Shown here: positions 506-32,086 of the stretch, one piece after another
Position numbering within the stretch: the first letter of the stretch is position 1
How the letters are laid out: every line of letters starts with the position of its first letter
Assembly (NCBI GenBank): GCA_012520995.1
Contig: JAAYNI010000067.1
Coordinates: 124,001-188,000 of the forward strand
Direction of reading: 5' to 3'
DNA: 64,000 nt
DNA from: Candidatus Rifleibacteriota bacterium
GTDB taxonomy: Bacteria > Muiribacteriota > Ozemobacteria > Ozemobacterales > Ozemobacteraceae
Notes under the pieces: model-generated
What the model was told of the DNA's origin: nothing
What the model saw: the letters and a program-made list of their open reading frames with translations, nothing else
The model's database searches: none
Program-made: the position numbers and the translations under genes

Positions 506-558
506 GATATTAGTTCTGGTAGACTGTTGCAACTAAATGTTCTTTTAGAATTTTCATC

Positions 559-588
559 CACAGATGGACACAGATTCACACAGATGAG
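559..588. repeat. 10-base tandem repeat (CACAGATnnn x3)
   Basis: Three consecutive units beginning CACAGAT with exact spacing 10 (559, 569, 579), the last three bases varying. The reverse complement of the same motif occurs at 15830-15849, 17108-17126 and 32022-32040, always next to a hairpin. Confidence 0.85.
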
Positions 589-597
589 GGCAAAACT

Positions 598-642
598 GGT
601 CAAAAATTGCATTCTGCTACTGCATAATCACAATTTTTGACC
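598..642. repeat. Perfect 12-base inverted repeat
   Basis: GGTCAAAAATTG (598-609) is exactly complementary to CAATTTTTGACC (631-642) around a 21-base loop. There is no T-run on either side, so it is not an ordinary terminator. Confidence 0.8.
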
Positions 643-702
643 TAGCCTCTGATTAAGGGCAGATGGTGATGAACAATGTAATAGGGGAGCTAAAGAATTC
701 AA

Positions 703-723
703 CTCGCCACTCACCACTCGCCA
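703..723. repeat. 7-base tandem repeat (CTCGCCA/CTCACCA x3)
   Basis: Three units in strict 7-base phase at 703, 710 and 717. It lies inside the block shared with 31833-31912, where the equivalent positions read GAGTGGC-type units on the other strand. Confidence 0.8.
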
Positions 724-784
724 CGGTGCGATCTTAGTAGCAGCCAACTATGATTTATTGTTGAGCAAGATGTATTTTAAAAGG
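705..784 (-). repeat. Dispersed intergenic block, copy 1
   Basis: The reverse complement of these 80 bases matches 31833-31912 at 71 of 80 positions without gaps, including the exact stretch CTAAGATCGCACCGTG. Both copies are intergenic and neither encodes an extended reading frame. They may be remnants or active copies of a dispersed non-coding element. Confidence 0.85.
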
Positions 785-825
785 ATCTTTATGTTTATCT
801 GATGCAGCAGCCGCCACTGTTTTTT

Positions 826-1506
826 TCAGTCTACACTTAAGTGAATCAAAGTTGAGCCGTCAGCGTCATCCTCAACCTTTATGACTCTAAGAATATTCTT
901 CTTGCGAGCTCTCAAGAATTCTTGAAGCTTTAAAAGTTCTGAATCGTAGTAATCAACATTGACGCGCATGTTCTTAAGAATGCCGCTGTAGTTTTGATTT
1001 ATTCTTCTAACATCCTCAATGTCTGAAACTGTTATGTTGAGGTTTCTGGCCATCTTATTCAAGTTTTTGCTCTGACAGAGTTTCATGAGGTTTTTGTTCA
1101 AGTCCTCCATAAGGTAGACAAGGTCATACTCAGTCATATTGCCTGATCTAAGTTTGGTTAGTGATATTTGACGGGTTATATAACCTTTTCTTGCCATTCT
1201 TCCAACGACGCTGTACATTTCATCCTTTGGATTTATTTTTTTGAATGGGGTGGGATTCCAATTAATTATTCGATTTCGCGGGGTTAGTGCCTTCTGTTCT
1301 GTTACAGACTTAGGAATAGGCTCCGTGTGAGCAGGGAGCTTCAAAGTCATTGTGAATTGATCAGCTTTCATGCCTTCAGGCAAGGGAAGAGTAATGGTAG
1401 AGTCGGCTCTCGCTGTCGAAAAGGTGGATAGAGCGGAAACAATTATCATTAAAGCCAAAAGATAACATTGGCTGCTTTTGAAAAATCTTTTACATGTTCT
1501 AAGCAT
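826..1506 (-). CDS. Exported protein with one SLH-like segment
   Basis: The 226-residue product starts with a positively charged segment and a hydrophobic core (residues 14-33) ending in ARA|DS, a typical Sec signal peptide. Residues about 93-140 (DEMYSVVGRMARKGYI ... MTEYDLVYLMEDL) resemble an S-layer-homology domain as used to anchor envelope proteins: a position for Y/V, a Gly-Tyr-Ile turn, then Met-Thr-x-Tyr-Asp. Only one such segment is present, whereas anchoring usually uses three. The remainder is helical and ends in a short beta-like tail. GGAGGA precedes the ATG. No close family is recognised. It stands alone, facing repeat locus A. Confidence 0.7.
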   Translation of the reverse strand: MLRTCKRFFKSSQCYLLALMIIVSALSTFSTARADSTITLPLPEGMKADQFTMTLKLPAHTEPIPKSVTEQKALTPRNRIINWNPTPFKKINPKDEMYSVVGRMARKGYITRQISLTKLRSGNMTEYDLVYLMEDLNKNLMKLCQSKNLNKMARNLNITVSDIEDVRRINQNYSGILKNMRVNVDYYDSELLKLQEFLRARKKNILRVIKVEDDADGSTLIHLSVD

Positions 1507-1706
1507 ATGGCTGATTCCTCCAATAATGGTATCTTTGAATTCGGCTTATATCTAAGTTTTTGTAACTATAAGAGAAGAGTAAATGAGAAATCTTTATATG
1601 GGGTGCTGATTCTTAATGAAAAAATATTCTGTCTTTTTTCATACGGTCAGGGTATTCTATGCTCGCAAAAGCCATTTGGAACAAATTGAAAAGGAGGGCG
1701 GAGAAT

Positions 1707-2594
1707 ATGAAATCTGATAATCAAAAAGCCATTGATGAAATTGCCAAAACTTTCTTGGGTAAGAGATTAAATAATTATGAAAGCAGATATGATTCCAGCT
1801 TGCTGGTGCCTATAGAGAGGTCTTTGAATCGCACTGATTATAATATAAAAGCTGACGATTTTATGGGCTTTGATATTTGGCATAACTATGAATGCAGTTT
1901 TATGACAAATAAAGGATATCCGCTTACTTTGGTAGGTAAAATCAAGATCCCTGCCGATTCAAAATATTTTATTGAAAGCAAATCAATGAAATTATATTTC
2001 TTTGGATTTCATATGGAAAAACTGGGAGAAACTAAAGAAGAAGCTATTCATAACTATATCAGGATTGTCAGGAGGGATTTGTCAGAAAAAGCAGAATCTA
2101 ACGTTGAATTCAATGTGTTTGAAAAAACAGACAATATAGACATTTTTACCGACTATAAACATATCGAAGAATTGATTGATATTGAAACAATAGACTTCAA
2201 AGATTTTAAGGAATCTCCTGAGTTGATTAAAACAAGCAATGACAAAGGAACTCTAAAGGTTTCTTTTCCAAATCTTCGTTCTAATTGCCGAGTTACGCAA
2301 CAGCCTGATTTTGGGAGCCTTTTTATAGGGATTGAAGGCGAGCTTCCAAGTTTGGAATCCTTAGCTCAATATATAGTTTCATTCAGAAATGAGTATCATT
2401 TTCATGAAGAAGTTACAGAGCAAATTTACAAGTCCTTGCAAGACAGGCTGAAAATAGACAAGCTGAGCGTTTGCAACATGTTCACAAGAAGAGGAGGTTT
2501 GGATATTTGTCCCTGCAGAGCTTCTTCGTTGGATTTGATTGATCAAACGGTGATAGATATAAATAGGCTGCAGAATGCGACTGTCTACCAGTAA
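1707..2594 (+). CDS. queF: NADPH-dependent preQ0 reductase QueF (long type)
   Basis: QueF reduces 7-cyano-7-deazaguanine to preQ1 in queuosine synthesis. The 295 residues match the long two-domain type of E. coli (282 residues): SLLVPIERSLNR near the start, ESKS at 90-93, catalytic Cys194 in SNCRVT with Asp201 in QPDFGS, FHE at 232-234 and TRRGGLDI near the end. The start at 1707 is chosen because AAGGAGGG lies just upstream; an earlier in-frame ATG at 1659 lacks a ribosome site. No other queuosine genes are in the window, and no preQ1 riboswitch pattern is visible upstream. Confidence 0.95.
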   Translation: MKSDNQKAIDEIAKTFLGKRLNNYESRYDSSLLVPIERSLNRTDYNIKADDFMGFDIWHNYECSFMTNKGYPLTLVGKIKIPADSKYFIESKSMKLYFFGFHMEKLGETKEEAIHNYIRIVRRDLSEKAESNVEFNVFEKTDNIDIFTDYKHIEELIDIETIDFKDFKESPELIKTSNDKGTLKVSFPNLRSNCRVTQQPDFGSLFIGIEGELPSLESLAQYIVSFRNEYHFHEEVTEQIYKSLQDRLKIDKLSVCNMFTRRGGLDICPCRASSLDLIDQTVIDINRLQNATVYQ

Positions 2595-2606
2595 AACAGT
2601 AGATTG

Positions 2607-2648
2607 TTGGCAGTGGATAGTCGACAGAGAGCAATTGTCACTGTCAGC
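2607..2648. repeat. Degenerate 7-base tandem repeat (locus B)
   Basis: Six units in 7-base phase (TTGGCAG, TGGATAG, TCGACAG and diverged followers). The run starts 13 bases after the queF stop and ends 27 bases before the promoter of the next gene. Part of its wording (GACAGAGAG.GCAATT) recurs near 16769. Confidence 0.6.
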
Positions 2649-2674
2649 AACTGTAAAGCAGCGGCTGGCTGCTC

Positions 2675-2703
2675 TTGACGTTTGGATAAAAAACGGGTAC
2701 AAT
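2675..2703 (+). promoter_or_regulatory. Candidate sigma-70 promoter of the 2734-4511 operon
   Basis: TTGACG (2675-2680), a 17-base spacer, TACAAT (2698-2703). Predicted start near 2710, with the GGAGG of the first gene in the leader. Confidence 0.6.
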
Positions 2704-2733
2704 GGCTTAAAATAGTGCGATTTGGAGGCGGCA

Positions 2734-3516
2734 ATGAGAAAAATAAGCTTTAGAACAATGCTGACCGTCCTTGCAATGACTCTGCTTTGTACAGGAGTCT
2801 TTGCTGACGAGATCTTTGTTCCGCGATGGAAAAAAGGCGATTCTTGGGCAGTAGATACAACCACACTTGACGTAAGAAATGAAAAGCCTGCTTGGCAACC
2901 TGCTGAAAGGTGGGTCTTTAAAGTGCGCAATATCACTCAGTTCCAAGGCCAAGATTGCTATGTGTTGCATGTGCATTCGTCTCGCAGAAGCAATTTAAAT
3001 CAAGCTGTTCTATGGCTTTCCGTTAAAGATCTCAGACCGCTTAAAATAATAGACGTGTTTCCTTCAGCGGGCAGTGTTTCTCACTCTGAAAGAGACCTTT
3101 CTCAAGGAGAATATGTTCCTTTGCTTGCAAAGGATACACCTGTTCCCTATGATTTGCCTGTTTTCCCGCTGACTACCTTGGAAGAAGACACTGAAGCAAC
3201 CAGAAGCGTTTCGGATTCTGCTATTCATAGAGACTTTTCAAGCGTAAGACAAACTGGCAGGCTTTCCTTCAAACGAAAAGTCACTCAAACAGAAAAGGCA
3301 CCAGGAAAAACTCTTAGAGCGGCTTTCCCGTCTAAGACTCGAAGCGGTGAGACTGCTCTGCTTTATCAAGTTACAATTGGCGAAGAACGCTCCAAGATCA
3401 AAATTGAACAGGTTTGGCAGGAAGATAAGCCTTGGGCTCTGACTTCCGAATCTGCTACCAAAAAATCAAAACTCGTTATTGAAGAAAAGAAAAATTCAAA
3501 CGGAGGTGAAGAATAA
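2734..3516 (+). CDS. Exported protein of unknown function, partner of the transglutaminase-like gene
   Basis: The 260-residue product has a clear signal peptide (MRKISFRTMLTVLAMTLL ... VFA|DE, residues 1-24). The mature part opens with VPRWKKGDSW and is rich in beta-like segments; residues 150-200 are charged. I recognise no family. The start at 2734 follows GGAGG at a good distance; a TTG at 2722 would overlap that site. The stop overlaps the next start by one base (TAATG), so the two genes are almost certainly co-translated. It could be a chaperone, inhibitor or substrate-binding partner of the next product, but that is inference from the coupling alone. Confidence 0.75.
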   Translation: MRKISFRTMLTVLAMTLLCTGVFADEIFVPRWKKGDSWAVDTTTLDVRNEKPAWQPAERWVFKVRNITQFQGQDCYVLHVHSSRRSNLNQAVLWLSVKDLRPLKIIDVFPSAGSVSHSERDLSQGEYVPLLAKDTPVPYDLPVFPLTTLEEDTEATRSVSDSAIHRDFSSVRQTGRLSFKRKVTQTEKAPGKTLRAAFPSKTRSGETALLYQVTIGEERSKIKIEQVWQEDKPWALTSESATKKSKLVIEEKKNSNGGEE

Positions 3517-4511
3517 TGCGAAAAATCACTTTCATTACGGCTATATTTGTTATTTTCGCTCTTTGCCCCGCACTCTTTGCTAACGATTCCGGCGAAATAA
3601 AACCAGCTCCTTGGTCTGGATACTGGTGGCCGCGTAAAGTTACCGCTCTCTTTGAAGGATGGAGAGGGCATAAGCCAGGCCCCTTAGCTAAATATGATGC
3701 GTATGTGCAGCAGGTAACAGGCAGAAATCCAGGAGCAGTTGCATGGGAAGCCGATGTACGCAATAATCACTATAATCCCAATGCAGAAGGCTGGGAAGGT
3801 CACTGCAACGGATGGGCAGCAGCGGCAATTATGACTCCTGAACCCACTTTTTCCAGAATCAGAGGCGGCATTGAATTTACGGTAGGAGATCAGAAAGCTC
3901 TTTTGAGCGAACAGTGGATGAACTGCTATTGTAATTTTTATGGTCACAGATATTGGGGCGGATCAGATGATCCAGATGATATATATCCCGATGAATTCCA
4001 CAGAGTTATTGAAAAATACATAGGTGAAAATAAAAGTGCCGTCATTTGTGACATTGAATATGAAGAAATGGTTTGGAACTTTCCTATGTATAAATACACA
4101 AGCTCATGGTCTGAATCATGGTTTGATGAAAACAAGTTGAAAGTTAAGACCACTTGCTGGTTTGTGAATGATGATGTGGGTGCAGAATTTGTAGGTACCA
4201 GAAGCTTTACTATAGACTATACTTACAATCTCTATTTGGACAAAAACGGCAACGTCGAATCAGGCGAATGGACAGGTAAGTCGCGCAGAAATCACCCTGA
4301 CTTTATTTGGGTGCCTACTGCCGATGCTCCTAATCCTAAAAATGGCAATTTGGAGAATCCAAGACTTCACCCCAGATTTGTGCAGCAAATTTGCGAAGGT
4401 CCTGCTCGTGAAACAGAACGCACAAGATCCGTGTTAGATTCTGATGAATTCAGAACTCCTGACGATGTACTGAGAAAAGCAGGTCTGGATCCTGCTGTGC
4501 TTTTCAACTAA
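3516..4511 (+). CDS. Exported transglutaminase-elicitor-like protein
   Basis: The 331 residues begin with a signal peptide ending ALFA|ND. The mature part has the features I associate with the transglutaminase elicitor family (Phytophthora GP42 and bacterial relatives): APWSGYWWP near the start, GHCNGWAAAA (95-104) with the candidate nucleophile Cys97, then EFHRVIEKYIG (160-170) and CDI...VWNFPMYKY (178-194). Members of that family cross-link glutamine to amines using a Cys-His-Asp type centre. The assignment rests on motif recall, not a search. It is coupled to the upstream exported protein and followed by a strong terminator. Confidence 0.7.
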   Translation: MRKITFITAIFVIFALCPALFANDSGEIKPAPWSGYWWPRKVTALFEGWRGHKPGPLAKYDAYVQQVTGRNPGAVAWEADVRNNHYNPNAEGWEGHCNGWAAAAIMTPEPTFSRIRGGIEFTVGDQKALLSEQWMNCYCNFYGHRYWGGSDDPDDIYPDEFHRVIEKYIGENKSAVICDIEYEEMVWNFPMYKYTSSWSESWFDENKLKVKTTCWFVNDDVGAEFVGTRSFTIDYTYNLYLDKNGNVESGEWTGKSRRNHPDFIWVPTADAPNPKNGNLENPRLHPRFVQQICEGPARETERTRSVLDSDEFRTPDDVLRKAGLDPAVLFN

Positions 4512-4525
4512 GCAAATAAACTGCT

Positions 4526-4573
4526 AAAAAAGCAGGCTAGGGCGATAAACAATGCCTTTGCCTGCTTTTTTTT
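4526..4573. terminator. Bidirectional intrinsic terminator
   Basis: AAAAAAGCAGGC (4526-4537) pairs with GCCTGCTTTTTT (4560-4571), with an inner GGGC/GCCT pairing. A and T runs on both sides suit the convergent 3516-4511 and uvrB genes. Confidence 0.9.
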
Positions 4574-4612
4574 ATACTCTATAAACTACTTCCTTGAAGT
4601 TCCCGCCACTCA

Positions 4613-6691
4613 TCACTGTTTTTTCAACGCACGCTTGCGGGCTGAGCCTTTGGCTTTGCCTTTTTTTAAGGCTTGGGAGATATTTCCAAGAATATCTGAT
4701 TCTAAATGCTCACTTTGAATAGTTATTATTTCATCTCTGATAGCTGCGGCTTTCTCAAATTCCAGCTTGGCAGCAGCACTTTCCATTTCTTGCTTCAGTT
4801 TGGTTAAAATCTCTGCAAGCTGCTCATTGGCTACTTTTCTGGTAAGTTTTGTATGAGCGGGGTTGGAAGCATGTTCGGGGTGTTCCCAGGTGGGAGCGAA
4901 TGTCTCAGCAATAGCTTTCTTAATAGTCTTGGGAACTATTCCGTATTTTTTATTATGAGCTTCTTGAATTTTTCTGCGTCTGGCTGTTTCGTTAATGCAA
5001 TATTCCATAGCCGGCGTGATTTTGTCGCCGAAAAGGATAACTTTTCCTGAAGCGTTTCTTGCAGCTCTTCCGCTGGTTTGCATGAGCGACCATTCAGAAC
5101 GCAAAAAACCTTGTTTATCAGCATCAAGTATTGCGACTAATGAAACCTCTGGCAGGTCAAGGCCTTCTCTGAGGAGGTTTATGCCTACAAGCACTTTAAT
5201 TTCTCCTGTACGCAGGTCGTGAAGTATCTCAACTCTCTCCAAGGTGTCTATTTCGTCATGCAGGTATCCGCTTGGTATGTTTAAATCGGCAAGATATGTT
5301 GCTAGTTCTCTTGCCATCTTTTTGGTCATGGTGGTAATCAGAACGCGTTCATCTCTCTCAATACGTTCATTTATTTGTTCTATAAGATAGTCTATTTGTC
5401 CTTCAGTTTTTACTACTTCAATTTCAGGATCCAGAAGACCTGTAGGCCTTATAAGCTGTTCTGCCACTTTGTTTTCAGAGACTTCAAGCTCGTATCGTCC
5501 AGGAGTTGCAGAAACATACATTATTGGCAGATCTTTGCTTAAAAATTCTTCGAAAGTTAAACATCGATTGTCCAATGCGGATGGGAGACGAAAGCCGTAG
5601 TCTATAAGGGTTTGTTTTCTATTTCTGTCGGCTCTGTACATTCCCTTTAGCTGAGGTACTGTCATGTGGGATTCGTCCAAGATTATGAGACAATCTTTAG
5701 GAAGATAGCTTACTAAGGTGTCAGGAGGCTCGCCGGGATTTCTGCCTGAAAAATGTCTTGAGTAGTTTTCTATGCCTTTGCAAAAACCTGTTTCTCTCAT
5801 CATTTCGAGGTCATATCTGGTGCGTTCATAAATTCTTTGAGCTTCTATCAGCTTACCTTCGGATTCGAAATATTTTACTCGCTCTTTCATTTCAAACTCA
5901 ATGTTTTGAAGAGCCAGCTCTCGCTTTTCTTCGGTGGTGACAAAGTGTTGTGCAGGGAAAATTTCTACTTGTTTCAGCGATTCTAAAAGTTCGCCCGTCA
6001 GAGGATCGAATCTTTCAATTTTTTCGGCCTCATCACCAAAAAAGCGGACTCTTATGCCTTCTTCGCTGGCGGCAGGAAAAATATCTATAACTTCGCCTCT
6101 GACTCTGAATCTGGAGCGGCTGAAGTCCATGTCGTTTCTTGAATATTGGATATCTACCAGCTGTCTGATAAGCTTGTTTTTGCCGTGCATAGAACCTTTT
6201 TTTATTGTTATACGCAAGTCGGCATAATCAGCTGGTGAGCCAAGGCCAAAAATACAGCTTATAGAAGCTACTACAATGATATCCCGCCTAGTGAAAAGAG
6301 AGGTGGTTGCTCCGTGTCTGAAACGGTCTATTTGGTCGTTTATTGCCGAGTCTTTTTCTATGTAACTGTCAGTGGAGGGTACATAGGCTTCCGGCTGATA
6401 GTAATCGTAGTAACTGACAAAATATTCTACAGCGTTATCAGGAAAAAAGTCTTTGAATTCGCTGTATAGCTGTGCTGAGAGGGTTTTATTATGTGTTATT
6501 ACCAGAACAGGTCTTTGCAGTCTCTGTATGACATTTGCCATAGAGAAAGTCTTACCTGAACCAGTGACTCCGAGAAGGGTTGTGTTCTTAGCCCCTTCCC
6601 GGAGCCATTCAGTAAGGTTCTCCACAGCCTGCGGCTGGTCGCCGCTAAGACTATAGGGGCTGTGGAGCTTGAACAGTTCGGGAGATTGCAA
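4613..6691 (-). CDS. uvrB: Excinuclease ABC subunit B
   Basis: UvrB is the damage-verifying helicase-like subunit of nucleotide excision repair. The 692 residues show Walker A GVTGSGKT (41-48), the beta-hairpin region YYDYYQPEAYVP (94-105), the DESH motif II followed by VPQLKGMY, the helicase C-terminal ATPGRYE segment and a C-terminal UVR domain (AKLEFEKAAAIRDEI) that contacts UvrC. A lysine/arginine-rich tail ends the protein. The start codon is TTG, one base after the pnp stop, without a clear ribosome site, so translation is probably coupled to pnp. Joining uvrB to an RNA-decay operon is unusual. Confidence 0.95.
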   Translation of the reverse strand: MQSPELFKLHSPYSLSGDQPQAVENLTEWLREGAKNTTLLGVTGSGKTFSMANVIQRLQRPVLVITHNKTLSAQLYSEFKDFFPDNAVEYFVSYYDYYQPEAYVPSTDSYIEKDSAINDQIDRFRHGATTSLFTRRDIIVVASISCIFGLGSPADYADLRITIKKGSMHGKNKLIRQLVDIQYSRNDMDFSRSRFRVRGEVIDIFPAASEEGIRVRFFGDEAEKIERFDPLTGELLESLKQVEIFPAQHFVTTEEKRELALQNIEFEMKERVKYFESEGKLIEAQRIYERTRYDLEMMRETGFCKGIENYSRHFSGRNPGEPPDTLVSYLPKDCLIILDESHMTVPQLKGMYRADRNRKQTLIDYGFRLPSALDNRCLTFEEFLSKDLPIMYVSATPGRYELEVSENKVAEQLIRPTGLLDPEIEVVKTEGQIDYLIEQINERIERDERVLITTMTKKMARELATYLADLNIPSGYLHDEIDTLERVEILHDLRTGEIKVLVGINLLREGLDLPEVSLVAILDADKQGFLRSEWSLMQTSGRAARNASGKVILFGDKITPAMEYCINETARRRKIQEAHNKKYGIVPKTIKKAIAETFAPTWEHPEHASNPAHTKLTRKVANEQLAEILTKLKQEMESAAAKLEFEKAAAIRDEIITIQSEHLESDILGNISQALKKGKAKGSARKRALKKQ

Positions 6692-6692
6692 G

Positions 6693-16686: not shown

Positions 16687-16744
16687 TGCTTTTTCAGCTA
16701 AAACTTTATTATCGTCTATGTTTTTTCTGCCTGCTATAAAAATA

Positions 16745-16772
16745 GTGAGTTGTGGACTGTGGACGGTGGACA
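16745..16772. repeat. 7-base tandem repeat (GTGGACn x4)
   Basis: Units start at 16745, 16752, 16759 and 16766: GTGAGTT and three GTGGACn. Confidence 0.8.
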
Positions 16773-16815
16773 GAGAGGGCAATTAACATCAGTGATGAGT
16801 GGCGAAAACTTCAAA

Positions 16816-16843
16816 GGAGTAGGGGTTAGGGTGTAGGGAGTAG
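16816..16843. repeat. 7-base tandem repeat (GGAGTAG type x4)
   Basis: Units GGAGTAG, GGGTTAG, GGTGTAG and GGAGTAG in exact 7-base phase. The same family of units occurs at 27832-27859. Confidence 0.8.
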
Positions 16844-16900
16844 CCTAGCCCAAGGGCCAAGAGGTGGGGGCGAGTGGCGGGTGACGAGTTGATTGTTTAG

Positions 16901-16932
16901 AACTCAATTCTTGAAACTGATAACTGCTTTGG
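16901..16932 (+). repeat. ACTCAATT..TGAAACTGATAA block, copy E
   Basis: Matches 31926-31957 at 26 of 32 positions. It is preceded by the same GAGTTGATTGTTTAG as at 31912. Confidence 0.75.
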
Positions 16933-17052
16933 ACTGCTGATAAATAGTTGAAACTCTTGGATTCAAAATAAAAACAAAACTATCAAAAACGAAGTTTTGG
17001 CATAATTTTTGCCCTGTCGCTGCTTTCTCATGTATGTTGTTCCTTCTCTCCC

Positions 17053-17080
17053 GCTACTCGCCACCCGCCACACAACACTG
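17053..17080. repeat. 7-base tandem repeat (CGCCACn type x4)
   Basis: Units CGCTACT, CGCCACC, CGCCACA and CAACACT in exact phase, directly before the palindrome. Confidence 0.75.
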
Positions 17081-17126
17081 ATTTTTAAGCTAGCTTAAAA
17101 ATCCTATCTGTGTAATCTGTGGATAG
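17081..17126. repeat. Palindrome plus CTGTGTAATCTGTGGATAG
   Basis: TTTTAAGCTAGCTTAAAA (17084-17101) is a perfect palindrome, extended by GAT/ATC with one bulge. The 10-base motif follows at 17108-17126. Same arrangement as 15789-15849 and 31997-32040. Confidence 0.85.
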
Positions 17127-17136
17127 TTTATTTTTC

Positions 17137-17165
17137 TTGTAAAAAGTTGCTTTTTGCCTTATAAT
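17137..17165 (+). promoter_or_regulatory. Promoter of the yicC operon, predicted leaderless
   Basis: TTGTAA (17137-17142), a 17-base spacer and consensus TATAAT (17160-17165). The expected start at about 17172 is 2 bases before the yicC ATG, and there is no ribosome site. Confidence 0.75.
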
Positions 17166-17173
17166 CGACCGCC

Positions 17174-24586: not shown

Positions 24587-26767
24587 ATGGAAAGCCTTTC
24601 TATGCCTGACAAAGAAGTTTTGTTTTCCTTAGTCAGGAGCTATAACCCCGAGGCTGATTTTGCCAGCGTAGGAAAGGCCTATGATATGGCTAAAGAGGCT
24701 CACAAAGATCAATTTAGAGCTTCCGGAGAGCCCTTTTTCCTTCATCCTTACAGTGTGGCCTGTATAGTCGCGGAAGAGCTTCATCTGGACTCTACTGCAG
24801 TTTGTGCGGCTCTTTTGCACGATGTTATAGAAGATACAGCTGTTACAGCTCATGATATTGAAAAGGCTTTTAACTCTGTAGTCTCTAACTTGGTAGAGGG
24901 TGTAACTAAGCTTAATAAAGTATTTTTTACTTCAGCTTCGGCAGCTCAGGCGGCAAGCTTCAGAAAAATGATTTTTGCAATGACTCATGATGTTAGGGTC
25001 ATTCTCATTAAGCTTGCGGACAGACTTCACAATATACGAACCCTGACTTTTTTGCCGCCTGTAAAACAAAAGCATATAGCTATAGAAACCCTGGAGATAT
25101 ATGCGCCTTTGGCTCATAGGCTTGGAATAAACAAAATTAAGTCGGAGCTTGAAGACGTCTCTTTCAGCTATATTAATCCAGAAAAATATCAAGAAATAGT
25201 AGCTTTTCTGGAGAAGTCAGGTATTGAGGATCAGAGCAGGCTTCATGATGCAATAAAGCTGATAGAAGAACAAGTTAAAGAGTTGGACTTGGAAATAGAT
25301 ATTTCTGGCAGACCCAAACAGATATATTCTATATACAACAAGCTTCTTAAATATAATACCGATCTGACAGGTCTTTATGATTATCTTGGCGTGAGAGTCC
25401 TTACAGACTCTGTAAAAGACTGTTATGCGGTTCTAGGTATAATTCACAAGAACTGGAAACCGATTCCAGGCCGTTTCAAAGACTATATAGCAGTTCCAAA
25501 ACCTAATATGTACCAGTCTTTGCATACAACCGTGCTTTTTGAAGGTGAACCATTGGAGGTTCAAATAAGAACTCACGAAATGCACAAAGTAGCAGAAGAG
25601 GGAATTGCTGCTCACTGGGACTACAAAGAAACAGGCGGTGAGGTAACTGCTCGGGATTATAAAGAAAAACTTTCTTGGCTCAGAAATCTTATCGATTGGT
25701 ACAAAGAAGTCAAAGATGCTTCCGAGTTTATGGAAACAGTCAAACTGGATCTCTTTGAATACCATGTTTATGTCTTTACCCCCAAGGGTGAGGTGGTTGA
25801 ACTTCCGAAAGACAGTACTCCTATAGACTTTGCCTATTCAATTCATACAATGGTAGGTCATACATGTGTCGGAGCCAAGGTTAACGGCAGAATAGTTCCA
25901 TTGGATTACAGGCTTCAGAATGGCGACATAGTTTCTATTCTGACAAGTAAGAAGCAAAAAGGACCAAGCCGCGATTGGTTAAATATAGCAGGCAGTGCAA
26001 GCGCTAAGCGTAAAATCAGAAACTGGCTCAAAAAAGAGTTCAGAGACGACTATATCGTTACTGGCGAAAAAGAATTTTTGGACTATTATAGAAAGTCTGA
26101 TGGTGACAAAGAGCTGGAGAAAACCTTTAAAACCTCTGCCTTTGCCGAGAAGGTCAAAGCTGCAGGATATGGCTCGTTAGAAGAAATATATGCGAGTTTG
26201 GGTTCCGGCGATTTGAAAGTTCAGCATGTCTTTGCCAAACTTTTCCCGGAACTTCTAGTTAAGAAAGCTCCAGATAAACTCAAAAAGAAACCCAGAGCTT
26301 CACGTGGTCCAAGTATTATTGTTGATGGCCTTGAGGACGCTCTCGCCAAAATTTCAAAATGCTGTAATCCTATACCTGGTGACAGAATTGTCGGATACAT
26401 AACCCGTGGCAGAGGAGTAACCATTCACAAGGACGACTGCGAGAATCTCCTGAATTTGCGTGAGAATGAAGCTGATCGCTTAATTGAGGCTAAGTGGGAT
26501 ACCGGAGTTGCCGACAATGTTGCGAGCTCCGATGCTTACAATGTCAGGATCCGCGTTGAGGCCATAAACAGAAAGGGCATGCTTAACTCCCTTACAGCTC
26601 TTATTTCAGGCAGCGAAATAGATATAAACTCAGTCGATGCCCGTGTAAAAAAGGATCAGACCGCTTTTTGCGACTTTTCTTTGTCCGTATCTAATTTAGA
26701 TGTGCTTGAAGATTTGATGAACTCTATATCAAGAATCTCAGGTGTGCTTAAAGTGTATAGAACTTGA
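24587..26767 (+). CDS. rel: Bifunctional (p)ppGpp synthetase/hydrolase Rel
   Basis: Makes and degrades (p)ppGpp in the stringent response. Domains in order over 726 residues: HD hydrolase with intact ligands (HPYSVA, LLHDVIEDT, KLADRLHNIRT), synthetase (GRPKQIYSIYNKL, YDYLGVRVL, RFKDYIAVPKPNMYQSLHT, EVQIRT), TGS (HVYVFTPKGEV ... SIHTMVGH), a zinc-finger-like stretch with CCNPIPGD, and a C-terminal ACT domain. The RFKD motif and the intact HD site indicate both activities. The preceding STAS gene is 6 bases away. Confidence 0.95.
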   Translation: MESLSMPDKEVLFSLVRSYNPEADFASVGKAYDMAKEAHKDQFRASGEPFFLHPYSVACIVAEELHLDSTAVCAALLHDVIEDTAVTAHDIEKAFNSVVSNLVEGVTKLNKVFFTSASAAQAASFRKMIFAMTHDVRVILIKLADRLHNIRTLTFLPPVKQKHIAIETLEIYAPLAHRLGINKIKSELEDVSFSYINPEKYQEIVAFLEKSGIEDQSRLHDAIKLIEEQVKELDLEIDISGRPKQIYSIYNKLLKYNTDLTGLYDYLGVRVLTDSVKDCYAVLGIIHKNWKPIPGRFKDYIAVPKPNMYQSLHTTVLFEGEPLEVQIRTHEMHKVAEEGIAAHWDYKETGGEVTARDYKEKLSWLRNLIDWYKEVKDASEFMETVKLDLFEYHVYVFTPKGEVVELPKDSTPIDFAYSIHTMVGHTCVGAKVNGRIVPLDYRLQNGDIVSILTSKKQKGPSRDWLNIAGSASAKRKIRNWLKKEFRDDYIVTGEKEFLDYYRKSDGDKELEKTFKTSAFAEKVKAAGYGSLEEIYASLGSGDLKVQHVFAKLFPELLVKKAPDKLKKKPRASRGPSIIVDGLEDALAKISKCCNPIPGDRIVGYITRGRGVTIHKDDCENLLNLRENEADRLIEAKWDTGVADNVASSDAYNVRIRVEAINRKGMLNSLTALISGSEIDINSVDARVKKDQTAFCDFSLSVSNLDVLEDLMNSISRISGVLKVYRT

Positions 26768-26778
26768 CAGGTGTGCTG

Positions 26779-27744
26779 ATGTCTGAATATTCCGACTTTG
26801 GAAGCCTTGATCTTATCAATTTGCTTACACCGCCTAACATGCCTGATTTATATAATATCAAGGTGACAGAACTTGAATCTGAAGCTTTGTTGTCTTTTGA
26901 TGAGCCTTTGCCTTTTTCAGATGCTTCTGTACAATCGTCTAAGATTTTATCAAAGAAAACGGAGATAGCATCTGTAAAATCTGGAGAATTGTCTTCTTCT
27001 ACGGGGCCAGTTGCTCCCGAAAGTGTTAAGGCGAGTAATTCTTCCTCGCCAAGAGAAGTATCTTATACGCGCAGACCTATGGCAAACCTTCCTTCTTTGT
27101 CAGTAAGGGAGCGTGAGCGTCTGGAGAAAATAGAAGAAATCCTTGCCGCTCCGCCAATAGAAAATGATTCATTAGAAAAGCTTGTTGCTGATATAGCGGC
27201 CTGTACTAATTGCCCTTTAAGCGTTACAAGAAAAAACACTGTGCCTGGACATGGCAATCCTAAAGCGAGGCTTATGCTGATTGGCGAAGCGCCTGGAGCA
27301 GGCGAGGATGAAGCGGGGCTTCCGTTTGTAGGCAAAGCAGGACAGCATCTAGACAAGATTATAGCGGCTGCAGGCTTTGATAAAAGTGAATTGTATATTT
27401 GCAATATACTCAAATGCCGTCCTCCGATGAACCGTGACCCATCCATGGAAGAAATGCGGCTATGCACGCCGTTTTTGGACCGTCAGATAAACATAATAAA
27501 GCCTGATTTGCTGGTTTGTTTGGGAAATGTAGCTATCAGATATATAATTTCGCCCGCTGCGCCTGGCGTTTCCAAGATACATGGGCAGTGGTTTGATTCT
27601 ATTTTCAAAATTCCCGCCATGCCTATGTACCATCCTTCCGCATTGATACGCTCTGAAAGCCGTGCAAAAGGCAGTCCTAACTGGGTGACATGGCAAGATG
27701 TGAAGGCTCTGAAGAAGAAATACGATTCGCTCACTAAAAACTAG
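26779..27744 (+). CDS. Uracil-DNA glycosylase, family 4
   Basis: Iron-sulfur uracil-DNA glycosylase for base-excision repair. The catalytic domain occupies about residues 125-315: ACTNCPL, MLIGEAPGAGEDEAGLPFVG, ILKCRPP, LCTPFL (cluster cysteines) and MYHPSALIR. Residues 1-120 are a low-complexity Ser/Glu-rich extension of the kind often seen in this family. The start at 26779 follows AGGTG by 5 bases; TTG 26764 overlaps the rel stop and is less likely. Last gene of the yicC-to-UDG run. Confidence 0.9.
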   Translation: MSEYSDFGSLDLINLLTPPNMPDLYNIKVTELESEALLSFDEPLPFSDASVQSSKILSKKTEIASVKSGELSSSTGPVAPESVKASNSSSPREVSYTRRPMANLPSLSVRERERLEKIEEILAAPPIENDSLEKLVADIAACTNCPLSVTRKNTVPGHGNPKARLMLIGEAPGAGEDEAGLPFVGKAGQHLDKIIAAAGFDKSELYICNILKCRPPMNRDPSMEEMRLCTPFLDRQINIIKPDLLVCLGNVAIRYIISPAAPGVSKIHGQWFDSIFKIPAMPMYHPSALIRSESRAKGSPNWVTWQDVKALKKKYDSLTKN

Positions 27745-27831
27745 TGCTTTGTTGCAGCTAAAAGTTACCCATAAAATCTTATTCTGCGTTTTAACCGATT
27801 AGTTTATTTCAGATGCTACAGTCGCACTAGA

Positions 27832-27859
27832 GGGAGTAGGGAGTAGGGTGTCGGGGGTA
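27832..27859. repeat. 7-base tandem repeat (GGGAGTA x4)
   Basis: Units GGGAGTA, GGGAGTA, GGGTGTC and GGGGGTA start at 27832, 27839, 27846 and 27853. Confidence 0.85.
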
Positions 27860-27868
27860 GTGAAATTT

Positions 27869-27900
27869 GACTCAATTGCTGAAACGGATAATTGCTTTGA
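27869..27900 (+). repeat. ACTCAATTGCTGAAAC block, copy F
   Basis: Identical to 31926-31957 at 30 of 32 positions and in the same orientation. The two copies bracket the pilin-like operon at 28197-31810. Confidence 0.85.
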
Positions 27901-28122
27901 CTTGCTGATAACTATATGAAGTTTTGAATAAAAAAAAGATTATAAGCTAATAAAACTTAAATAATCTAAAGCAAAGAAAAAAAATAAAAAAAATGCGGCA
28001 GAATATATCTATAAAAATACTTACAAATATTTATTATGAGTCGAAAAGCAGGATATTAGACTCGCGAGCGGGCTTCCAGTTTTTTGCTGCCCATGGTTAG
28101 CATCACGCACCACTGCTTATTC

Positions 28123-28150
28123 TGTCCACGGTCCACTAATCACTGACTAC
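28123..28150. repeat. 7-base phased repeat (nnnnCAC x4)
   Basis: TGTCCAC, GGTCCAC, TAATCAC and TGACTAC in exact 7-base phase, followed by TGATTTT. Confidence 0.7.
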
Positions 28151-28181
28151 TGATTTTTAAGCATTGATTAAAAGTTTCATG

Positions 28182-28187
28182 TATAAT
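28182..28187 (+). promoter_or_regulatory. -10 box of the pilin-like operon, predicted leaderless
   Basis: Consensus TATAAT with no good -35 at 16-18 bases. The expected start near 28194 lies 3 bases before the ATG at 28197, and no ribosome site precedes that ATG. Confidence 0.55.
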
Positions 28188-28196
28188 AGTCGCAAG

Positions 28197-28697
28197 ATGG
28201 AAAAATATAACTTACGACAAGCTTTCACCCTGATTGAAATATTAGTCGCTGCGACTATGCTCAGCGTGCTTTTCGGTATGACTTATTTACTTTCCAATAC
28301 TCTGTTTGGAGTAAAAAAAATCAGAAGCTACGAAACAGCTATTATGCTTGCAAACGAAGCTGTTGAGGCTGTAAGAGCAGCTCGTTCATCAGATTTGTTG
28401 AGACTGCCTCCAGGAAAGAAAGCCGATCCTAAGGCCAAAGCGGAAAAAGACTCATTGGTAGCTGATTTTAATAGTGATCAAGATGAATATGACGATACTG
28501 TTTGCGGATTTAAACCGGAAATAAAAGTGGGCAACGTCCTTTACAAACGTACAATAGAGATAATAGATATGGAATCTGATTCCAAAAGTTTGGAAAGCCC
28601 AGTTAAAACCGTAAGAATACTTGTGGAGTGGAAAGACGGCGAAGATGCCACTCCTCTGACTTATGAAATAATAACAGCTCACTGTGATTTAAGATAA
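28197..28697 (+). CDS. Type IV pilin-like minor subunit, PilV/GspI-like
   Basis: The 166 residues start with a short class III leader MEKYNLRQA and then FTLIEILVAATMLSVLF, the prepilin cleavage and N-methylation motif with Glu at +5. The rest is a globular domain without cysteine pairs. Start at ATG 28197: starting at 28164 would make an oddly long leader and would lie upstream of the likely transcription start. It opens a three-gene cluster of pseudopilin-type proteins. The assembly ATPase, platform protein and prepilin peptidase are not in the window, so these subunits must use machinery encoded elsewhere. Confidence 0.85.
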   Translation: MEKYNLRQAFTLIEILVAATMLSVLFGMTYLLSNTLFGVKKIRSYETAIMLANEAVEAVRAARSSDLLRLPPGKKADPKAKAEKDSLVADFNSDQDEYDDTVCGFKPEIKVGNVLYKRTIEIIDMESDSKSLESPVKTVRILVEWKDGEDATPLTYEIITAHCDLR

Positions 28698-28709
28698 GTA
28701 TTTTTAATT

Positions 28710-29414
28710 ATGAAGACTTCGAAAGAAAAATCAGGCATATCCCTTATAGAAGTTGTACTCTCGATTTTCTTCTTGTCCTTGCTCATTGTGCTGATTAATA
28801 AATTGTTTTTCTCGGAAATACAGAATATAAAGTTCTCGGTTGAACATATGTATTTAAACGAGAATGTACGAAGAGTAATGGTGCTTCTGGGACATGATGC
28901 CAGAAAGTCTAATTGGGTAGATTTCCCTGCTCCTATGGATGTGAACGAAATAAAGGATTTAAAGCCGATTACTGCTCCTGGGCCTTTTATCAAATTAAGA
29001 GTTCAAGAATTTGACTTTGAGGTTAAACCGCCGGATGAAGGCTTTCTAAAACAATCATTTATTGAATATTCTCTGATTGAGGGCGAAAACGGCACCCTTT
29101 CCCTTCAGCGCACTGTGGCTTCAGATGACTCTGGCGGACAATCGGCTTCAAAAATAGTTTGTGAAGGCATAATAGATGCGCAGGCGGCAGTTACCATTGA
29201 ACGTCCTATGACATTAAGTTCTAATACTGATGGGTTATTAACCAAAGAAAAAATGGCTCATTTTCCATACAGCGATAACGGCAAAGGTCCTTGGCTTCTT
29301 CATGTACAGCTTAACCTTACTAAGCCTGATGATCCTCGGACAGCAGATAAGGTTTTATTTGAGTTTAAAACTTGTTTCGCCTTGCGTGGCAAGCTTAACG
29401 GAGTGTTTCCATGA
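28710..29414 (+). CDS. Type IV pilin-like minor subunit, PilW/GspJ-like
   Basis: The 234 residues begin MKTSKEKSG|ISLIEVVLSIFFLSLL, a prepilin-type leader with Glu at +5 and a following hydrophobic helix. The rest is beta-rich, similar in size and position to PilW/GspJ. It follows the previous gene by 12 bases and overlaps the next by 4 (ATGA). No strong ribosome site is seen. The call rests on leader and order; the globular part is not recognisable. Confidence 0.8.
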   Translation: MKTSKEKSGISLIEVVLSIFFLSLLIVLINKLFFSEIQNIKFSVEHMYLNENVRRVMVLLGHDARKSNWVDFPAPMDVNEIKDLKPITAPGPFIKLRVQEFDFEVKPPDEGFLKQSFIEYSLIEGENGTLSLQRTVASDDSGGQSASKIVCEGIIDAQAAVTIERPMTLSSNTDGLLTKEKMAHFPYSDNGKGPWLLHVQLNLTKPDDPRTADKVLFEFKTCFALRGKLNGVFP

Positions 29415-31810
29415 TTAATTTTTCAAAACGGCGCGCTCAAGCAATGATTTTTGTCCTTATAGCCATAGCTATTATTTCAGCCTATTTTGCTTTTGTTCTG
29501 CTTTTTCAGCAAAACCAAACAGCGCTTTTGTCGAAATCAGCTAAGGATTATATGGCTGTTTGCGTTGCTGAAACAGGTTTGCACTGTCTCCTTGCTGAGA
29601 TGAAGGCGGATTATCAATTTGTGACCCATGGAAATATATATGTTCCGGTCAAAGGATGGGGAACTTCTTCAAAGAGTCAAAAGTTTAATTATATAAAAGG
29701 CAACGAACATGTTGAGTTAGCAAAAAACACAAATGGAAACTACGAAGGAACGGTAAACTTCAAGGAGGTTGGTGAAAAAGGCCAGTTTAAAGCTCGTGTA
29801 AAACTGCTTGCCGCTAAAAATGCTACTGAGACTAAGACTATTGATGAATCTCACGCATACTTTTTATTGGAGTCTTTTGGCAAGGTCGGAGATTCTTGCA
29901 AACGTGTTTCAGCAATTTTACAAAAAATCACTCCTGGAAACTATCTGTTTTATGACGGAGATATACTTGATCTCGGCGGTTATGGCCCTAATCGTTTGCG
30001 AAAAGGTATAATAACTGGCGGACGTATATATGGACACGAGATGCTGGTTTTTTCCAAAAAAGGTAAAAGTGACTCAGGGCTTGCTTTCGAAGATGTGGAA
30101 AAAATATCGACTCCAGGAGCTATTGTAGCATACGATACATTTCCTATTGATTTTCCTGGTGGCAAAAAGGGTTCTATAAGCACTAAAAATGATTCTTACA
30201 GCCAGAAAGATTTTGAAACTTACGGTGACGAATCTGGAGATATAACTATAAATGGTAAGCTTTTGGACGGACCCCACGGAGCAAAGTCTGAAAAACTCCC
30301 AGCGCTTAATCCAAAATATTACAGAGAAGCTACTCGTCCGTCTCCAACTATTCTTTCAGCAGGCTCAAGCTTTGACGGTTTTAAAGAGTCAAAATGGAAA
30401 AATCCTTTGAAGCCTTCGGAGACAGTTTATGACCTCTTCTTTGGTTGGAAATTTGAGCAAAAAGGAGATAATTGTCTTATTTACTCTGAAGTTCCTTTGA
30501 GAATTTGGGGCAATCCTCCTTATAAGGCGCTTACAATATTTTGTGAGAAAGATGTCTATATAGCAGGCGATTTGAATACAAACCCTCTTGCTCCTCAAAG
30601 ATATGAGCCAGGTTATTCAAAGCTGGCTTATCAGCCTAAAAACGGCCGCGATAAAAACGGACTCCAAATATTATCCATGGGACGCATTTGGTTTGACTAT
30701 TCGAATCCGATGAACTTTATGAGAAATGAACTTCATACGCTTATAGACTATGATTTGGCGAATTCACTGTCAGCTACAAAATTAAATACTTCTTTATTGA
30801 AGGAGATAGTTTTTCCTAAGAGAGATTCACATAAAACCTACAAGAGACTCCCTTTTACTTTTATCAACTTTTCAGCTTTGAACTCTATGTATCACATGCC
30901 AAAAGAATCCCTTGAAATGGATGCTGTGATTGCTGCTTCTTTGCCTTTTCATCCAGCTTTGAGAAAATTGCGTTCTTATCTTAACAAACCGGGAAAAGCT
31001 GAACCTGATAAATTGCCTAAAATGCCTTCTCAGACTCCTGAATTGGAAAGCGGGAATGCGGGAGTTTACAGCACGGAAACAGACAAGAAGCTTCTCATGC
31101 AAGATAATAAAACCAGGCCGCAAGCTCAGGATGATAATAATGAGGAGAGCGGCGGTTACATAGGCGGCACTGGGGAAAGCGAAGTACATTTTCCGATAGA
31201 AAGTGCGGCGGTTAGAGTAGGTATTTACGAAACTATAGGCGCTTTGGCTTATGCAACAGGAACTATTCCTCCCCAAGTGAGAGACAAAATAATTGAAAAG
31301 ATTTTAACTCAAGCAGAAAAAGAGATGTTTGATAAAAACGGCTCTCCTGTACCTGAATCGCCTGTTTGGACGGTTATGGACAGACTTATGAATACAGTTC
31401 TGGCTCACAGGGATACAGGTTTCAGGTTCCCTGAAATGACCGTTAATGCTTTATTGGTTGACTCTGCGGCGACAGATGTGAACTGGGATTTAGGAAACTC
31501 TGCTACGAAAACTCTTCAGGAGCTTGGCAACATAGCTGACGGTGCTATGAACTCTTTACCTTATACTAACAAAAATACCCGTTTTATTTTAAGACATCAC
31601 GGTTCCAGAATTCATCTTAGAACTGCTCCTTCAGATGTCAGCATTAAGAAAAAAGTTTCAGATGACCAGTCGGTAATGCGCAAAAACTCTTTTGATAATA
31701 CTTTTGTCAGAGGCGGCGGCGATTACTTTCCTCCTTATCCGATGAACGGCTTCATCATGATTAACTGGGAAGAATCAAGTATTACACCTGAAGAATTCAA
31801 AGACATCTAG
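29411..31810 (+). CDS. PilX/GspK-like large minor pilin subunit
   Basis: The 799-residue product starts with a basic stretch and a hydrophobic helix (RRAQAMIFVLIAIAIISAYFAF split at the cleavage region), lacking Glu at +5 as GspK and PilX do. It comes third after PilV- and PilW-like genes, the usual minor-pilin order. It is far longer than GspK (about 330) or PilX (about 200): residues 60-790 form a large exported domain with a disordered, Gln/Asn/Gly-rich section around 530-585. This suggests a tip adhesin-type minor pilin. Stops just before locus G and faces the giant lipoprotein. Confidence 0.7.
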   Translation: MINFSKRRAQAMIFVLIAIAIISAYFAFVLLFQQNQTALLSKSAKDYMAVCVAETGLHCLLAEMKADYQFVTHGNIYVPVKGWGTSSKSQKFNYIKGNEHVELAKNTNGNYEGTVNFKEVGEKGQFKARVKLLAAKNATETKTIDESHAYFLLESFGKVGDSCKRVSAILQKITPGNYLFYDGDILDLGGYGPNRLRKGIITGGRIYGHEMLVFSKKGKSDSGLAFEDVEKISTPGAIVAYDTFPIDFPGGKKGSISTKNDSYSQKDFETYGDESGDITINGKLLDGPHGAKSEKLPALNPKYYREATRPSPTILSAGSSFDGFKESKWKNPLKPSETVYDLFFGWKFEQKGDNCLIYSEVPLRIWGNPPYKALTIFCEKDVYIAGDLNTNPLAPQRYEPGYSKLAYQPKNGRDKNGLQILSMGRIWFDYSNPMNFMRNELHTLIDYDLANSLSATKLNTSLLKEIVFPKRDSHKTYKRLPFTFINFSALNSMYHMPKESLEMDAVIAASLPFHPALRKLRSYLNKPGKAEPDKLPKMPSQTPELESGNAGVYSTETDKKLLMQDNKTRPQAQDDNNEESGGYIGGTGESEVHFPIESAAVRVGIYETIGALAYATGTIPPQVRDKIIEKILTQAEKEMFDKNGSPVPESPVWTVMDRLMNTVLAHRDTGFRFPEMTVNALLVDSAATDVNWDLGNSATKTLQELGNIADGAMNSLPYTNKNTRFILRHHGSRIHLRTAPSDVSIKKKVSDDQSVMRKNSFDNTFVRGGGDYFPPYPMNGFIMINWEESSITPEEFKDI

Positions 31811-31832
31811 TTCTGTGTTGCAACTAAAATTT

Positions 31833-31912
31833 CCTTTTAAAAGACATCTTGCTCTACAATAAATCATTGTTGGCAGCTGCTAAGATCGCACCGTGATGAG
31901 TGGCGGGTGGCG
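31833..31912 (+). repeat. Dispersed intergenic block, copy 2
   Basis: Matches the reverse complement of 705-784 at 71 of 80 positions with no gaps. Confidence 0.85.
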
Positions 31913-31925
31913 AGTTGATTGTTTA

Positions 31926-31957
31926 GACTCAATTGCTGAAACTGATAATTGATTTGA
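31926..31957 (+). repeat. ACTCAATTGCTGAAAC block, copy G
   Basis: 30 of 32 identical to 27869-27900 and 26 of 32 to 16901-16932. Confidence 0.85.
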
Positions 31958-31967
31958 GATGCTGCTG

Positions 31968-31995
31968 CACCCTACGCCCTAACCCCTACTCCCTG
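31968..31995. repeat. 7-base tandem repeat (CnCCCTA x4)
   Basis: CACCCTA, CGCCCTA, ACCCCTA and CTCCCTG in exact phase; the reverse complement resembles the GGGAGTA units of locus F. Confidence 0.8.
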
Positions 31996-31996
31996 A

Positions 31997-32040
31997 TTTT
32001 AAGCTATGCTTAAAACCCCCTCTGTGTCATCTGTGGATAG
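31997..32040. repeat. TTTTAAGC hairpin plus CTGTGTCATCTGTGGATAG
   Basis: TTTTAAGC (31997-32004), loop TAT and GCTTAAAA (32008-32015), then the 10-base motif at 32022-32040. Confidence 0.85.
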
Positions 32041-32086
32041 AAAAAATCTGTTCGATAATAAACATTTAGATTTTACAGACTTCTAG

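Follow-up and report, generated by a model that had tools for sequence, protein, structure and literature searches.

What generates the runs of exactly 7-base tandem units that lie between genes in a 64,000-nucleotide stretch of Candidatus Rifleibacteriota bacterium DNA (GenBank assembly GCA_012520995.1, contig JAAYNI010000067.1, positions 124,001 to 188,000 of the forward strand; this whole stretch is called the window below)? Bacterial repeats of this length were first remarked on decades ago, and to our knowledge no account of their origin is accepted. The original prediction attributed them to a replication-slippage or enzyme-driven process with a 7-base step, after which drift degrades the arrays. 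We arrive at a different answer, to which we assign a probability of roughly 60%: the heptamer arrays are integral to a set of small dispersed non-coding elements occupying the intergenic spaces, and they are copied with these elements and act as joints within them. Under this proposal, each end of an element would consist of a hairpin or short inverted-repeat element and then an array, oriented with the G-rich strand inward, and a core would lie between the two ends. The arrays resemble exchangeable parts of miniature mobile elements more than stutters arising spontaneously at individual sites.

The 7-base periodicity itself is real. The source is a 2.84-Mb draft genome (101 contigs, 96% complete), and lag statistics were computed on a 451,908-base sample of it by comparing intergenic with coding DNA and with 30 shuffles. 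Identity at lag 7 is 0.3086 in intergenic DNA, against 0.2714 ± 0.0020 in the shuffles (n = 30, z = 19.1) and 0.2505 in coding DNA; the intergenic excess on which the original prediction had staked itself is thus present. Arrays called at this lag number 86 between genes and 16 elsewhere, so that the claim of a strictly intergenic location holds nearly, though not without exception. Among intergenic arrays, lags 4 to 6, 8, and 10 to 13 give 1 to 16 each, lag 9 gives 32, and lag 14, a harmonic, gives 34. The period had also been said never to change, and lag 7 is indeed strong, but a second, period-9 family (sentences ATCTGTGTAATCTGTGGATAG and CCGTGTATTCTGTGTGTTCCGTGG; lag-9 z = 10.2) occurs in the same islands, in the window at 557-577, 17107-17127, and 32020-32040. 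Two such period-9 sentences stand as facing inverted repeats with TTTAAA on both sides at L019:6573-6888, which may be chance (2 scan hits against 0 to 3 in shuffles). Genome-wide, GAGTGGCGAGTGGCG with at most 2 mismatches has 192 matches against 7 for its reversed control, and GGGAGTAGGGAGTAG has 184 against 5. All ten heptamer stretches first described in the window were found in their places. When each was compared with dinucleotide shuffles of its own intergenic region, in single tests uncorrected for ten, seven (at 703, 16745, 16816, 17053, 27832, 31895, and 31968) gave P values of at most 0.04 and three (2607-2648, 16861-16895, and 28123-28150) showed no significant excess; the words of the last two nevertheless recur at other places. 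Chance or low complexity is ruled out by the lag-7 excess, the reversed-control word counts, and the shuffle tests.

To examine the arrays in their surroundings, we used a larger sample of 833,561 bases, in which 304 intergenic regions of at least 60 bases yielded 244 lag-7 stretches, mostly 3 to 5 units long. At E < 1e-3, 47% of intergenic bases have a counterpart in a different intergenic region, against 0.8% with a reversed database. Such a shared match overlaps 219 of the 244 arrays, and in 205 it extends at least 12 nt into the flank. Tokens for the shared modules were found in 146 of 257 intergenic regions of at least 100 bases, and they follow a recurrent grammar, which together with the shared stretches bears out the earlier description of a modular family. 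The head is a hairpin (token HP) or an element, mostly of 84 to 90 bp, with TAGTGC...GCACTA ends; in the typical order ML is followed by M6a, M6b, or M6c, by an array with its G-rich strand forward, and by the core M5, after which there come, often behind a period-9 module, an array on the opposite strand, a hairpin, and the period-9 tail M1. The complete set of parts is present in few islands. Neighbor counts are HP-M1 (22), M5-ggcg (21), M6a-ggcg (12), and HP-aggg (12). Of 165 classed arrays, 53 have HP or M6 immediately in front and 2 have it immediately behind; M5 in forward orientation immediately follows 38 and precedes none. No token precedes 86 of the arrays, and none follows 88. Successive GC-type arrays within one region point inward in 26 cases, outward in 1, and in the same direction in 16. 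Hairpins scoring at least 11 abut the head side in 10 of the 128 arrays with a GT phase, the tail side in none, and random places in 2; at a score of at least 8 the contrast is weaker (26, 9, and 14, respectively). The window contains the following features:

456-825, no strand: island between convergent genes, token order M1- M7+ ggcg- M6a- M6c+; its parts are a reversed period-9 tail (about 557-577), an inverted-repeat module (598-643), the array, and a reversed M6a head
698-727, minus: heptamer array CGTGGCG AGTGGTG AGTGGCG AGTTGAA (P = 0.002 for 703-723)
2607-2648, plus: degenerate GTGGAY-type piece, 15/35 lag-7 matches (P = 0.18, not significant as a tandem array)
16687-17173, plus: full composite island between tandem genes, beginning directly after a stop codon, token order ML+ ggac+ aggg+ ggcg+ M5+ ggcg- HP M1+
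16743-16776, plus: GTGGACN array (P = 0.003 for 16745-16772)
16816-16844, plus: GTAGGGN array whose unit order recurs elsewhere (P = 0.001)
16866-16890, plus: NGTGGCG array joined to the core module (P = 0.15 for 16861-16895)
16896-16950, plus: core module M5 (blastn E = 4e-12)
17049-17079, minus: NGTGGCG array on the opposite strand, pointing inward (P = 0.025 for 17053-17080)
17080-17103, no strand: hairpin GATTTTTAAGC-TA-GCTTAAAAATC abutting the array
17107-17127, plus: period-9 tail module M1 (by sequence and token)
27742-27829, plus: 88-bp element TAGTGC...GCACTA, with its first TAG serving as stop codon for the upstream open reading frame (ORF)
27827-27860, plus: GTAGGGN array directly after the 88-bp element (0 of 1,000 shuffles for 27832-27859)
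27866-27915, plus: core module M5 (blastn E = 4e-12)
28124-28155, minus: weak, inward-pointing GTGGACN/AGTGATT array (P = 0.11 for 28123-28150)
31811-31891, plus: head modules ML and M6a directly after a stop codon (by tokens and sequence)
31892-31918, plus: NGTGGCG array (P = 0.04 for 31895-31922)
31922-31967, plus: core module M5, cut short (blastn E = 3e-14)
31968-31995, minus: inward-pointing GTAGGGN array (P = 0.002)
31995-32016, no strand: hairpin-like stretch GATTTTAAGC-TAT-GCTTAAAAC (by sequence and HP token)
32020-32040, plus: period-9 tail module M1 (by token and sequence)

The order of the units within arrays bears directly on how they arise. A GT dinucleotide is in phase in at least 75% of units, with at least 3 full units, in 117 of the 244 arrays; in these, departures from the array majority affect the base before GT in 33% of units, the sixth base in 30%, and GT itself in 4 to 5%, the last figure being partly a matter of construction, since the arrays were phased on GT. 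By eye, and with no statistical test, 12 hand-picked GTAGGGN arrays show the variable letter in the recurring orders A-C-G or A-(TT)-C/T-A. The order was then quantified on 20 NGTGGCG arrays linked to a core, out of 23, the other three, whose array was short or whose tail was irregular, being excluded: units of the same ordinal at different sites differ by 1.72 positions and those of different ordinals by 2.05, a contrast that 0 of 2,000 order permutations reach, whereas neighbors within an array differ by 1.85, exactly as do adjacent ordinals from different arrays. Because same-ordinal units are closer across sites and adjacent units are no more alike, the arrays are copied as ordered sentences and are not made anew at each site. 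The recurrent order follows from the arrays being copied together with the elements.

The strongest competing explanation is the one first proposed, in which a local process with a 7-base step, whether slippage or an enzyme, builds each array anew where it stands and drift then erodes it; the shared flanks would be older and unrelated. Changes by whole units do occur, as had been supposed. The longest of the GT-phased arrays listed (L054:15507-15567) has eight units, five of them identical CGTAGGG, and is either a recent expansion or two arrays fused by loss of a linker; one TCAGTTA array is a unit shorter in one of two orthologous Okeania stretches (a single array in one genome pair); and words differ at the same slot (see below). 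PMC4679880 likewise describes two Cyanothece strains whose repeats differ little and mostly by indels in 7-nt steps. Against such local generation, the unit order recurs between sites, adjacent units show no extra likeness, and arrays keep their polarity and neighbors; with 205 of 244 arrays lying in shared stretches, independent generation followed by drift is not supported, and we regard it as unlikely. Whole-unit slippage would instead be a secondary process acting on arrays copied with elements, as these single examples suggest.

A second line of evidence comes from the place directly before the core. Among 59 core copies, this slot is occupied by NGTGGCG in 20, by GTAGGGN in 10, by GTGGAC/GTGGGT-type words in 6, and by AT-rich words in 5; in 8 further copies a lone unit of one class stands there, and the remaining 10 have none of these, some of the 10 being array-like by eye. 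Since four word classes precede one core, the wording is a property of element lineages, with exchange taking place at one fixed slot, and the "site-specific wording" of the earlier description is better read as wording of the module lineage. Pairwise comparison of regions shows modules gained or lost between arrays: the array at 16816 in the window reaches its core only via a linker and an NGTGGCG array, whereas L066:18455-19004 joins GTAGGGN to the core directly. The simplest account would be deletion or exchange between arrays having a common AGT-type frame. Because the words share this heptamer frame, the arrays may act as joints at which modules are gained, lost, and exchanged and through which different words enter one slot, a pattern that recombination would produce. 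As a separate observation, a 131-bp element with ends like GAGGCTGTCCGAAAACT lies inside a GGGT-type heptamer array at L016:10676-11245, and the same array is uninterrupted at L013:19608-20000.

Do the composites resemble known miniature elements? Bacterial miniature inverted-repeat transposable elements (MITEs) and the pneumococcal BOX elements are short, non-coding, and intergenic and have terminal inverted repeats, BOX being modular; the present islands differ from these in that heptamer cassettes occupy a fixed subterminal place and their words can be exchanged. ML and M6 together form a discrete element. TAGTGC and GCACTA pairs spaced 40 to 200 bp apart are inward in 20 cases and outward in 1, and 18 of the 20 are 84 to 90 bp long, so that this head element has terminal inverted repeats; whole composites show no excess of bounded pairs. 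Among the 24 such elements with an array-like start behind them, to which the comparison of right halves was confined, the right half exists in several versions of similar length and the array starts directly after it. In the sample, TGC follows the stop codon in 18 of 101 TAG, 8 of 297 TAA, and 3 of 250 TGA cases, and 12 of the 18 read CTAG|TGC. A CTAG target or a TA duplication would explain the excess of TAG|TGC, and a 2- to 4-bp TA/CTAG target duplication is compatible with the TAGTGC pairs and stop-codon counts without being proven by them.

Clearer signs of insertion come from cyanobacteria, among 117 loci listed by a GTAGGGN pattern scan. An orthologous stretch of Okeania SIO3B5 (L071) and Okeania SIO2B3 (L149), with 93 to 95% identity, contains in L071 a 185-bp insertion that is absent from L149; it has ends GTAAGCATTCAGC and an 8-bp duplication ATTTAATT, and TCAGCTA-type heptamer arrays run inward from both ends. 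A second Okeania insertion, with ends GGGCTTGCTGA, is flanked by a 6-bp duplication TAAATA and contains an array close to one of its ends; its empty site is less clean. Three arrays can be aligned between the two genomes; the word agrees in every pair, with one copy degenerate in L149. Further copies with 6- to 8-bp duplications occur in Okeania, Moorena, and Calothrix loci, and 8 of 12 pairs of GGGCTTGCTGA ends are flanked by a duplication of 6 or 7 bp. The end GGGTTTGCTGAAAAAGTC, with at most two mismatches, occurs at 743 places in the SIO3B5 genome (reversed control, 204). Of these places, the 30 with an exact match that were assigned a locus were analyzed as copies: a duplication of at least 5 bp is present at 20, an array at 20, and both at 13. 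Fifteen arrays start 29 to 36 nt from the element end, and their words number five (canonical ACAGGAG, ACTCCCT, ACTCCTG, AACAGGG, and AACAGGC), plus one that could not be assigned. One element family in Okeania thus carries different heptamer words at one subterminal place, a feature it shares with the window's genome, and the duplications show insertion. Over all 117 loci, an admittedly noisy scan for inverted ends with duplications found 105 elements, against 24 to 32 in mononucleotide shuffles; 26 of the 105 have an internal array. The Okeania elements therefore display the terminal inverted repeats, target duplications, and empty site of MITEs, the clean empty site coming from one copy of one family.

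The next explanation in order of plausibility, somewhat less probable than local generation, is a role as cis-regulatory elements or elements of the transcript 3' end (sites of the G-quadruplex, protein-binding, or Rho type), with selection keeping the arrays at gene ends. The gene context has a strong bias. Among the 225 of 257 regions that could be placed, the rest lacking a gene on one side, the proportion with arrays is 27 of 41 for convergent, 54 of 124 for tandem, and 14 of 60 for divergent regions (convergent versus divergent, Fisher p = 3e-5); in tandem regions, composites run with the upstream gene in 31 cases and against it in 5 (p = 1e-5). PMC4692102 reports that G-rich heptamers form G-quadruplexes and sit near stop codons. 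In our sample the nearest gene end is a stop codon for 83 of 124 arrays, the G-rich strand being sense next to a stop codon in 75 cases against 8 and antisense next to a start in 33 against 8. This preference follows from inward geometry alone, since inward-pointing pairs produce it automatically, and an identical bias in context would arise, without any function, if promoters were avoided. AT-rich words occupy the same slot in 5 of 59 core copies, which a G-quadruplex model disallows. RNA folding z-scores for regions of 180 to 420 bases do not differ between 49 islands and 57 non-islands (p = 0.71), and an RNA element was discarded as a candidate for want of a folding signal.

The proposal that the arrays are parts of dispersed elements further supposes that these elements transposed, now or formerly, in the manner of miniature inverted-repeat elements, as the structure of the Okeania copies suggests, and that a transposase or another binding protein may use the arrays as its subterminal sites. 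Several observations in the present genome weigh against it. A scan of intergenic DNA for 14-bp inverted ends with 5- to 9-bp duplications gave 2 hits against 0 to 3 in shuffles, so that target-site duplications of this length show no excess here; a stricter filter, which would miss AT-only duplications, gave 0 against 0 to 1, although it was the one that returned the 105 elements in the cyanobacterium-rich set of 117 loci. Among the enzyme families searched, no Y1, reverse transcriptase, or DDE_3 gene was found, and the TAGTGC element is accordingly left with no DDE_3 (IS630-type) transposase in this genome. One DDE_Tnp_1 gene is present, in surroundings without matching ends. The 55 genomes listed as relatives include 23 members of the family but no congener that could supply an empty site. 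Alignment ends per covered base are more frequent in arrays (0.72 versus 0.45), but matches between arrays inflate this figure, and the role as joints rests on slot exchange instead. The gene-end context, finally, would fit a regulatory role too.

Two candidates for an autonomous partner were rejected: the DDE_Tnp_1 locus, because no matching ends lie nearby, and a multicopy protein gene, the largest set in the sample at 60% identity or more being three ORFs with Peptidase_M16 domains and no transposase. Nor is there a candidate, among the enzyme families searched, for the enzyme-driven 7-base process of the original prediction. Mobility in the window's genome is therefore inferred, there being neither an excess of duplications nor a Y1, reverse transcriptase, or DDE_3 gene, and the elements are old, were moved by something outside the families searched, or were spread by recombination. 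That they are instead like repetitive extragenic palindromic (REP) sequences or their hairpin-forming doublets (REPIN), moved by a REP-associated tyrosine (Y1) transposase (RAYT), or are reverse-transcriptase products, is very improbable: GTAG-like words beside hairpins resemble REP ends, but Y1_Tnp and RVT_1 each had 0 matches in the 96% complete genome, in a search in which control genomes gave matches.

How far does this arrangement extend? The NGTGGCG word, with at most 1 mismatch, has 1 or 2 matches in 4 of the 23 same-family genomes, against 56 in the window's genome, and two genomes of another family in the phylum give a weak lag-7 signal (0.3027 in 6,764 and 0.2892 in 5,134 intergenic bases). 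Among the matches listed, the GTAGGGN array pattern occurs above all in cyanobacteria, which agrees with the likeness to cyanobacterial heptamer repeats suggested earlier, and also in Planctomycetota, Aminicenantes, Nitrospirota, and others, many of these being metagenome bins of unchecked assignment. A vocabulary common across phyla was considered and rejected: 2 of 18 non-seed words of non-cyanobacterial loci are also in cyanobacterial loci, with 0.8 expected. Viral sequences contain 72 stretches with the GTAGGGN pattern against 31 for a reversed control, which likewise lends no support to a vocabulary shared across phyla. An exact period-9 array search gave 0, as did its reversed control, and a core-plus-array sentence was found in 0 viral contigs. 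The period-9 sentence TYYGTGTATTCYGTGTRTTCYGTGGTT occurs in six viral contigs (L187-L192; GC content, 48 to 64%), in several at an apparent gene border by eye, and GTAGGGN-type arrays lie at apparent gene borders, again by eye, in two viral contigs of 67 to 71% GC (L193:790-818 and L194:11053-11081).

Heptamer repeats between genes are already established in several lineages, namely Calothrix, Nostoc, Xanthomonas, Beggiatoaceae, and Geobacter. The short tandemly repeated repetitive (STRR) sequences of cyanobacteria and the small dispersed repeats of Nostoc, associated with Mazel (1990) and Elhai (2008), reportedly comprise several intergenic heptamer words per genome, with hairpins embedded in the arrays; the Elhai abstract reportedly mentions minitransposons as well as small dispersed repeats within heptamer arrays, which is the nearest precedent. 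The present arrays share with STRR sequences the several words per genome and the intergenic location, having exact 7-base tandem units enriched between genes and several words dispersed through the genome; they differ in being mostly 3 to 5 units long and set in recurrent composites. Doublets of TAACTGA, GGGGATT, GGGGACT, GGGAATC, and GGACCGG number 0 in the 833,561-base sample.

According to PMC4692102, the G-rich heptamers of Xanthomonas (GGGAATC) and Nostoc (GGGGAYT) have a variable position and most often four units; they lie near stop codons on the sense strand and are rare between divergent genes, with 70 and 75 convergent pairs in two Xanthomonas genomes and few inverted pairs in Nostoc. 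The sense-strand and stop-codon preference is the same as here, whereas the present genome has dispersed modules, AT-rich words in the same slot, and none of the words GGGAATC, GGGGATT, and GGGGACT. The same paper states that heptamer repeats are generally not associated with mobile elements. The TAACTGA repeats of Beggiatoaceae, as described in PMC4679880, are intergenic, have 2 to 6 units, and recur in unrelated phyla; they consist of one word mostly just upstream of start codons, in contrast to the several words, mostly nearer to stop codons (83/124) and without TAACTGA, seen here. Dispersed element families of Geobacter metallireducens carry 4 to 5 tandem heptanucleotides (GGACCGG and MTYCTGA; PMC2700814); their words differ from the present ones, and the accessible part of that source describes no modular grammar.

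Among the open-licence papers that our searches listed, most of them seen as listings, we found no account of heptamer arrays as variable cassettes of miniature elements, and PMC4692102 itself remarks that detailed literature on such repeats is lacking. Tying the arrays to the ends of small dispersed elements, with several words per slot, turns a curiosity into testable claims, namely that arrays would move with elements and that a protein would bind them by their period. More tentatively, and with less confidence than we place in the account of this genome, the arrays might be a general exchangeable-word cassette at a fixed subterminal place in prokaryotic miniature transposable elements of several phyla, in which the whole word changes but the period, the place, and the inward polarity stay constant. 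If so, the partner would recognize period and frame and not a fixed sequence. The sense-strand preference near stop codons in Xanthomonas may similarly be a by-product of inverted pairs.

Two further features lie in the window. A 1,503-aa ORF (32087-36598, minus strand) has as its sole match, near the C terminus and below the cutoff, the F510_1955 glycosylhydrolase family. The long region before the ORF at 37004 contains, at 36747-36945 on the plus strand, a 6S RNA (RF00013) scoring 47.1 bits against a gathering score of 46.4.

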